DNA from: Patescibacteria group bacterium
GTDB taxonomy: Bacteria > Patescibacteriota > SICC01
Direction: 5' to 3'
DNA: 34,661 nucleotides
NCBI GenBank assembly: GCA_009694835.1
Contig: SICC01000005.1
Location: forward strand, 1-34,661
The position numbers and the translations under genes were made by a program. The notes beneath the pieces were generated by a model, which saw only the letters and a list, made by a program, of their open reading frames with translations, was not told where the DNA came from and searched no databases. Below are positions 478-3,501 of the stretch, one piece after another (the stretch's first letter is position 1; each line of letters starts with the position of its first letter).

Positions 478-513
478 TAGTAGCTTGCTGTCTCATTCTG
501 ATAGTCGATACCT

Positions 514-692
514 GTGTCTCATTTGTCTCGTTTCGTGCCTGATCCGCTGAAATTGTGAGACACTGGGAAATGTCTCAACGGCTTGGCAACCATTGGTTAT
601 GAACCCGAGTGGCCTGCACGTAGGGAATATATAGAACCAAATCGGTAAACCCCTCAACGGTCTCCTAAAAGTGGTTCTGAACTCGAGTGGCC
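514..692. repeat. Composite repeat upstream of heliorhodopsin: hairpin (GTGTCTCA 514-521 / TGAGACAC 556-563) plus two copies of CTCAACGG-N18/19-TGAAC[C/T]CGAGTGGCC
   Basis: Copies at 574-614 and 653-692; related hairpin and third copy downstream at 2006-2104. Confidence 0.7.
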
Positions 693-770: not shown

Positions 771-1532
771 ATGAAGAATACAAAAATCCAAAGCTTCCGA
801 CGGCTCAATATCATTGCAGCTGCGTTACATGCTGCTCAGGGAATCATCATCCTTGCCCTGGCGACTGACTTCAAATTGCCCCTCAATCTCGGCTTTCTCC
901 AGTTCAATACGATCACCCAATCACTGGGGCCAGCCACTAAAACGATTGCTGATATCCCGCTGGTCTGGCTGGTCGTGGCCTTCCTGTTCATGTCAGCGAT
1001 CGCGCACCTAGTGATCGCCACCGTCGGACGCAAGCGTTACGAACGCGACCTCGCCAAGGGCATTAACCGTTTCCGGTGGATTGAGTACGCGTTCTCGGCC
1101 AGCACGATGATGGTCGCAATCGCGATGTTGGTCGGTATCTACGATCTGGCGACGTTGGCCGTCATCTTTATCGTGACCGCAGTGATGAACCTGATGGGGC
1201 TGACGATGGAAGTGCTCAACCAGACCACCCAACGCACGAACTGGTTGCCATACTGGATTGGCTGCCTGGCGGGAATCGCACCGTGGGTGGCGGTGGCGCT
1301 CTATCTTGGTTCAGGAGAAGCCTATGGTTCGGCCGCGCCGACATTCGTCTACTGGATCTTCTTCAGCATGTTCCTGTTCTTCAACTGCTTCGCGATCAAC
1401 ATGCTGTTGCAATACAAGAAGGTCGGGAAGTGGTCCGATTACCTCTACGGTGAGCGAGTCTACATCCTGCTCAGTCTATTCGCCAAGTCGGCCTTGGCGT
1501 GGCAGGTGTTCGCGGGGACGCTCAGGCCGTAA
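771..1532 (+). CDS. Heliorhodopsin
   Basis: Seven hydrophobic segments; TM7 SLFAKSALAWQVFAGTL with Schiff-base Lys; TM3 RFRWIEYAFSAS with Glu counterion position; His in the first two helices (AALHAAQG, AIAHLVIA). Start moved from TTG 762 to ATG 771. Confidence 0.93.
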   Translation: MKNTKIQSFRRLNIIAAALHAAQGIIILALATDFKLPLNLGFLQFNTITQSLGPATKTIADIPLVWLVVAFLFMSAIAHLVIATVGRKRYERDLAKGINRFRWIEYAFSASTMMVAIAMLVGIYDLATLAVIFIVTAVMNLMGLTMEVLNQTTQRTNWLPYWIGCLAGIAPWVAVALYLGSGEAYGSAAPTFVYWIFFSMFLFFNCFAINMLLQYKKVGKWSDYLYGERVYILLSLFAKSALAWQVFAGTLRP

Positions 1533-1996
1533 TGGATATTTCACTCAGCGGCGTCAACACAACCGACCTGGTCGGGCTGTTCATGATGCTGGCAGGATTC
1601 GTGATTGGACTCGGCGCGGTGACGGTCATCGATTTGCACGGGTTTCTCGGTCAGCACTCGAACTACTGGACGGAAGCTACCACCCGGACCCACAAGGTCA
1701 CCAAACCGATGATTTGGATCGGTATCAGCCTGGTGGCGCTCGGCGGTCTGATTTTCTACCGAGGTGACTATTCCGGCATTCCCACCGTGCAAGCTGTCCT
1801 GGTAGCGCTGCTCGTCTTGAATGGAACGTTCCTGACGTTCCGGGTCAGCCCGTTCTTGTTGAAGCGCGAGCGGCAGGGCAAGGCGGCCGAACTTCTTCCG
1901 GCGAGCTGGCAGCGGCGCATCATGGCCTCGTTCGTTATTTCGGTTATTGGGTGGTGGGGGAGCCTCGCTTTACTGACGTTGTATCTGGTTCGGTAG
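1532..1996 (+). CDS. Small multi-TM membrane protein, overlapping the heliorhodopsin stop (TAATG)
   Basis: ATG at 1532 overlaps the TAA at 1530-1532; about 4 hydrophobic helices; no family recognised. Confidence 0.8.
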   Translation: MDISLSGVNTTDLVGLFMMLAGFVIGLGAVTVIDLHGFLGQHSNYWTEATTRTHKVTKPMIWIGISLVALGGLIFYRGDYSGIPTVQAVLVALLVLNGTFLTFRVSPFLLKRERQGKAAELLPASWQRRIMASFVISVIGWWGSLALLTLYLVR

Positions 1997-2005
1997 GGGC
2001 CTTTT

Positions 2006-2104
2006 AGTGTCCCATTTGTCCCATTCCGTACGTAAACGGGACACTGCCATATAATCAAGAAAGCCCTCAACGGTTTGCGAACGGTGATTCTCAACCCGAG
2101 TGGC
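2006..2104. repeat. Downstream copy of composite repeat: hairpin AGTGTCCC/GGGACACT (2006-2045) plus CTCAACGG-N17-TCAACCCGAGTGGCC (2066-2104)
   Basis: Matches the 514-692 element; hairpin arms differ in sequence but still pair. Confidence 0.7.
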
Positions 2105-2201
2105 CTGCAGTTACTTGCAAAAGTAGCTTAACCGTGGTATATTTCTAAGCTCATTCAAAACCTGGTCAGCCAGTCCATCAGAACCCAACGGAAGGACTAA
2201 C

Positions 2202-2724: not shown

Positions 2725-3459
2725 ATGACATCAGTGGAAGACGAGAAACAACCAGTGCCTATTCCCGATCAAGTTGTCGAGTTACTAGGTAGGTTCAAGC
2801 CTAAGTCAGTGTTCCTTTATGGCTCACGAGCGCGGCAGGACTTTACCGAGCGGAGTGACTACGAAATCGGAGCGTTGTTCAGGGAAGCAGCCTATGTACC
2901 ACGCTCGAAGATAGCTGAAGCAGTCCAGATCGACGGCGTGAACGTCTATCCGTTCGTGTATGAGGATTTGCTTGCCGGTAAAGTCGACACCCCGTTCCAA
3001 CAAGCAATATACCTACGTGAGCTGAGCGAAGGAGCCAAGACCATCCACGGAGAAAAAGTTGTCGAAAAACTGAAAGCCCCTCCGATCTCGACAGTCGATC
3101 TAATGCAAGAGATTGCCTTCGATAAAGGCGTAGCGGTTGCTGCCGTTCGCGCCAGACAGGAAAAGGACGCGATTTCCACCTCAGTTAACTTCGCCAAGTC
3201 GTGCCTGTTTGGGACGCGTGTATTAGAAATCCTCGAGCTACAAGAATTTCCAATTGAGTACGATCAAATTTATGCACTCAGCGCGAAAGTGGTGCCGGCT
3301 GAACACCAAGATGTTGTTGAGGCGGCGCAACGGGTGAGAAAAGGTGGCGAGATGGTGCGCGATGACATCTTCCGCAACATTGCTCTACTCAATCAATATG
3401 TTGAGCCTCGGGTATTAAAGGCGTTTCATGAAAATGGTGACGCGGTAGTCTTACCGTAG
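2725..3459 (+). CDS. Nucleotidyltransferase (MNT-like) domain protein with helical C-terminal region, possibly HEPN-like
   Basis: FLYGSRARQDFTERSDYEIGALF resembles the GSxAR...SDxD NTase motif, with SDYE in place of SDxD; C-terminal helical SVNFAKSCLFGTRVLEILEL. Confidence 0.75.
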   Translation: MTSVEDEKQPVPIPDQVVELLGRFKPKSVFLYGSRARQDFTERSDYEIGALFREAAYVPRSKIAEAVQIDGVNVYPFVYEDLLAGKVDTPFQQAIYLRELSEGAKTIHGEKVVEKLKAPPISTVDLMQEIAFDKGVAVAAVRARQEKDAISTSVNFAKSCLFGTRVLEILELQEFPIEYDQIYALSAKVVPAEHQDVVEAAQRVRKGGEMVRDDIFRNIALLNQYVEPRVLKAFHENGDAVVLP

Positions 3460-3468
3460 AACTGCTTA

Positions 3469-3501
3469 ATCGCAGTTCGAACGTCCTCTATCAAGCCCTG
3501 C
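3469..3501. repeat. 33-bp direct repeat, copy 2
   Basis: Identical to 2650-2682. Confidence 0.95.

Follow-up and report, generated by a model that had tools for sequence, protein, structure and literature searches.

Heliorhodopsins (HeRs) have an inverted topology, with an intracellular N-terminus and an extracellular C-terminus, and undergo a retinal photocycle. HtrII is the transducer of sensory rhodopsin II; the function of HeR is largely unresolved. HeR has been proposed to act in photo-oxidative stress and occurs in oxidative-stress operons (PMC8612252), and DUF2177 is a neighbour in HeR operons (PMC11109279). Among described HeR operons, some carry a small multi-transmembrane (multi-TM) gene, DUF2177 or DUF2238, and others a stress gene, glutaredoxin or GSHPx, next to HeR (PMC11109279, PMC8612252). 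A cyanobacterial TspO is light-regulated and linked to stress (PMC4677103). Our literature search found no paper naming heliorhodopsin and TspO together.

The window, which is the whole stretch of 34,661 nucleotides analysed here, resembles these HeR operons in that a small multi-TM gene adjoins HeR (Table 1). However, the encoded protein, predicted to have four TM helices and termed here the four-TM protein, matches neither the DUF2177 nor the DUF2238 Pfam model, and its family is unnamed in Pfam and NCBIfam.

Table 1 Features of the window, and example c2 genes at other loci (numbered within each locus)
Feature	Position	Strand	Basis
Direct repeat, upstream copies (~110 bp at 513-622; partial copy at 640-692)	513-692	+	Repeat search
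Heliorhodopsin, 253 aa, ending FAGTLRP-TAA	771-1532	+	PF18761, NF038020, PDB 6is6
TAATG overlap of the HeR stop and the four-TM gene start	1530-1534	+	Sequence
Four-TM membrane protein, 154 aa, unnamed family	1532-1996	+	ORF, 25 relatives, alignment, AlphaFold2
Direct repeat, downstream copy, closing the bracket around HeR and the four-TM gene	2005-2113	+	Repeat search
c2 gene, locus L145	321-833		
c2 gene, locus L125	1774-2274		
c2 gene, locus L009	5478-5987		

The original prediction of a heliorhodopsin with the expected Lys, Glu and His residues was borne out. The protein scored 320.7 bits against the Pfam model (cut-off 26.7, E = 6.9e-96) and 324.1 bits against the NCBIfam HeR equivalog (cut-off 100). 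Its closest solved structure, 6is6, aligned over the full length (E = 1e-79), and the alignment matched K239, the Schiff-base lysine that binds retinal (SLFAK, the SxxxK motif in TM7), together with E105, H20 and H79. In sequence, key residues and length it agrees with type-3 rhodopsin heliorhodopsins, and its neighbour gene is its sole unusual feature compared with known HeRs. As also predicted, a Pfam scan of 28 other window proteins found no retinal-synthesis enzyme. The retinal-forming dioxygenase model PF15461 gave no match in the window genome or in two other members of its family, and it was silent in the control as well, so this silence is no proof of absence. Plasmid-borne HeR was limited to two records with uninformative neighbours. 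Elsewhere in the phylum, some HeR genes are fragmented or carry internal stop codons (G112:C4:35286-35696 and G048:C9:11904-12697).

The downstream protein was expected to be unrecognised, and searches against Pfam (none at E 1), curated NCBIfam and PDB returned no match. We found relatives with 46-67% identity in 25 other genomes, and an alignment of 27 sequences (A1) contained 32 invariant columns, among them the motifs GLGAVxVxDxH, YW, a THKxTxP-like stretch and WW. The 25 relatives and the invariant columns identify the open reading frame as a real gene. No plasmid-borne homologue was found. AlphaFold2, run with the 27 sequences, predicted four long helices (residues 10-39, 44-75, 82-114 and 124-153) with a mean pLDDT of 92. 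Both termini probably lie outside the cell, since Lys and Arg are in surplus where helix 2 starts and in the loop joining helices 3 and 4, and two relatives (L073 and L075) have an apparent N-terminal signal peptide and exported domain before the first helix. With this topology, the start of the four-TM protein would share a side of the membrane with the extracellular C-terminus of HeR. The exported domain of L073 had no clear Pfam match. An apparent signal peptide and exported domain also precede a distant relative, L080.

The HeR stop codon (TAA, 1530-1532) shares one base with the start codon of the four-TM gene (ATG, 1532-1534), so that the predicted overlap with a multi-TM gene of ~154 codons was present. 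Nine of the 32 same-strand junctions in the window fall between -20 and +5 bases and are equally tight, and the TAATG alone is therefore unremarkable and proves little. Scans for promoters and terminators gave no signal above chance.

If the four-TM protein were a tightly coupled output of HeR, as had been proposed, its homologues should be found beside HeR. When their adjacency was tabulated, HeR was present at none of the 25 homologue loci within the fetched flanks. A family search also found HeR nowhere in the 25 genomes, with the control genomes silent too; across the phylum, the same search matched 59 of the 380 genomes sampled. Among these 380 genomes, 13 had strong matches to the four-TM profile, of which four also carried HeR and nine did not; this co-occurrence was not significant (4 vs 1.9 expected, p = 0.11). 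Proximity of the two genes was confined to the family of the window genome: in its three genomes they share a strand, adjoining each other in the window genome and separated by ~4 kb in G002 and by ~5.5 kb in G001. Direct adjacency was seen once. The fourth carrier of both, G372, has them on separate contigs. What stands of the proposal is the coupling in the window genome and the neighbourhood within ~5.5 kb in its two relatives; most homologues occur without HeR. On these comparative counts the four-TM protein is not a dedicated HeR transducer, and nothing in these comparisons implies that the two proteins touch.

The neighbours of the four-TM family point elsewhere. Clustering the neighbours of 38 four-TM loci, with families identified by Pfam on representatives, gave TspO at 15 loci, a family that we denote c2 at 11, SOUL, DUF1295 and MsrA at three each, and DUF2177 and carotenoid genes at two each. 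Directly upstream of the four-TM gene, the 34 loci outside the window had TspO in ten cases, SOUL and DUF1295 in two each, c2 in one and HeR in none. The junctions between TspO and the four-TM gene were mostly overlaps of 14, 22 or 23 bases, and otherwise gaps of 9 bases. In one genome (G276), TspO, DUF2177, DUF1295, the four-TM gene and c2 stand in one row. Within 5 kb across the 380 genomes, the four-TM gene paired with TspO five times (0.09 expected) and with c2 four times (0.07 expected), and c2 paired with TspO 12 times (0.46 expected); the expectation is that of genes placed at random, uncorrected for shared ancestry. A DUF2177 gene had c2 no more than 5 kb away in 11 genomes and TspO in ten. 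The gene pairs stem from several families and vary in gene order.

This company holds for the four-TM family at large; the window copy is adjoined by HeR only. Compared with clusters of TspO (TspO/MBR, tryptophan-rich sensory protein, PF03073), in which TspO is the commonest neighbour of the four-TM family and is coupled upstream of it, the window has HeR rather than TspO in the upstream position. TspO, c2 and DUF2177 had no match in the window genome, an 83% complete assembly. In the other family members, the gene upstream of the four-TM gene is DUF2939-like and follows TypA, with no stress gene there, and MsrA lies downstream.

The c2 family connects this set of genes to HeR. It is strongly conserved, 170 aa long and probably soluble, has no Pfam or NCBIfam match, and is present in 69 of the 380 phylum genomes; its structural model was modest (pLDDT 74), with no Foldseek match. 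In Rhizobium etli and Sinorhizobium medicae, c2 follows TspO with a 4-base overlap, and in Mesorhizobium with a short gap. The same gene pool recurs among 50 HeR loci from the phylum: c2 is directly beside HeR at two loci (L125 and L142), the order c2-DUF2177-HeR occurs at L145, and at L118 (genome G020) c2 lies 2.3 kb from HeR and is preceded by TspO. DUF1295 is directly upstream of HeR at L129, and a carotenoid desaturase is beside HeR at L133. Pairs of c2 and HeR within 5 kb numbered five in the 380 genomes, against 0.18 expected under the same random placement, and came from five families, one of the pairs (G112) consisting of two decayed fragments. By adjoining both, c2 links TspO and HeR, in a gene set that also includes the four-TM family. 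In G112, the c2 gene beside the fragmented HeR is likewise decayed.

We therefore favour the reading, with a probability of roughly 0.6, that the four-TM protein belongs, as a membrane component, to a conserved bacterial module for photo-oxidative or porphyrin stress, and that in the window lineage the gene for this component stands directly behind HeR, so that a sensor and a component would be made together. The putative module would comprise the four-TM protein, TspO, SOUL, DUF1295, DUF2177, MsrA, carotenoid enzymes and c2. In the window lineage, HeR and the four-TM gene are probably carried on one transcript with coupled translation, and such a single message would leave light sensing and protection at least co-regulated. 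HeR may control or assist the module, which, given the published roles of HeR, DUF2177 and TspO, may respond to light or oxidative stress. The established footing of this reading is the genes themselves, their overlap, the four-TM family with its company elsewhere, and c2 as a neighbour common to HeR and TspO; the step from there to function is guilt by association. The shared neighbours suggest a looser link than a dedicated pair, in which HeR and the four-TM family both keep the company of one photo-oxidative-stress module. The question of HeR function thereby shifts from one neighbour to a recurring gene set that HeR shares with TspO in genomes of the phylum (TspO, DUF2177, DUF1295, c2 and the four-TM family), and two uncharacterised, strongly conserved families become targets: that of the four-TM protein, and c2, which extends to rhizobia.

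Distant kinship gives a weak lead to what the four-TM protein might do. Profile comparison of A1 with an alignment of distant relatives (A2) gave a homology probability of 98.9%. Six of nine A2 members matched CopD, weakly (best E = 1e-4), and other sub-threshold matches of A2 were DUF2269, DUF2214, SirB and UPF0093 (HemJ), whereas the partner itself gave none. Its likeness to these four-TM families thus runs through A2 below threshold. One A2 branch (L078 and L079) is fused to an N-terminal VKOR-like, disulfide-forming domain, with a Pfam VKOR match for L078. As to a fold shared with heme-binding four-helix cytochromes (b561, NarI), the top Foldseek match of the four-TM model was the b-type cytochrome Dcytb (E = 0.49, TM-score 0.44), and no match had an E value below 0.001. 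The weak A2 matches to CopD, DUF2269 and UPF0093/HemJ, the VKOR fusions and the Dcytb match with its poor E value hint that the protein might handle a tetrapyrrole or redox cofactor. Compared by profile with two E. coli proteins, YebZ of CopD and YchQ of SirB, the family gave no signal.

The adjacency itself may have arisen as a by-product of deletion, with the genes between HeR and the four-TM gene lost in the window lineage and functional coupling not needed. We give this somewhat less than even odds, and it is compatible with the stress-module reading of the four-TM protein. In G001 and G002, the order is HeR ... TypA, DUF2939-like gene, four-TM gene, MsrA, and neither a full-length TypA nor the DUF2939-like gene was found in the window genome, although at 83% completeness either could lie in the missing part. 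Trees indicated that both proteins were inherited within the family (support 100/99 for the HeR clade and 91/91 for the four-TM group), and the frequency of tight junctions in the window also fits a deletion. However, HeR and the four-TM gene are the only parts of the window shared with G001 and G002, having stayed together while their surroundings changed, and a deletion landing exactly on TAATG would be a coincidence.

An improbable further reading is that HeR substitutes for TspO, filling its place upstream of the four-TM gene and next to c2, and gives a TspO-centred module in candidate-phyla bacteria another input that reacts to light. HeR does occupy the TspO position in the window and adjoins c2 as TspO does, and counted by genome the two co-occur below expectation (10 vs 22.5, p = 2e-4). 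Counted by family, however, the avoidance disappears (14 vs 17.3 expected, p = 0.23), so that clade structure probably explains it, and G020 holds TspO, c2 and HeR together. Were it true, HeR function would become testable through the TspO-type module.

Very unlikely is a dedicated, HtrII-like pair in which the four-TM protein binds HeR and either relays its light signal or performs transport: the TAATG overlap and the proximity of the two genes in all three family genomes speak for it, but the absence of HeR from all 25 homologue genomes and from nine of the 13 phylum carriers, the non-significant co-occurrence and the family's usual coupling to TspO speak against it.

HeR and the four-TM gene are bracketed by a direct repeat with the core CTCAACGG...AACCCGAGTGGCC. 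A 40-base core pattern, allowing up to 3 mismatches, occurred genome-wide only at 653 and 2066; the repeat copy at 562-614 is more divergent and lies outside this limit. The bracketing repeat may be a mark left when the two genes integrated as a cassette. Farther downstream, a perfect 33-base direct repeat (2650-2682 and 3469-3501) brackets a gene at 2725-3459 that encodes a 244-aa nucleotidyltransferase-like protein with weak MntA/Polbeta similarity, possibly another small cassette beside the first.
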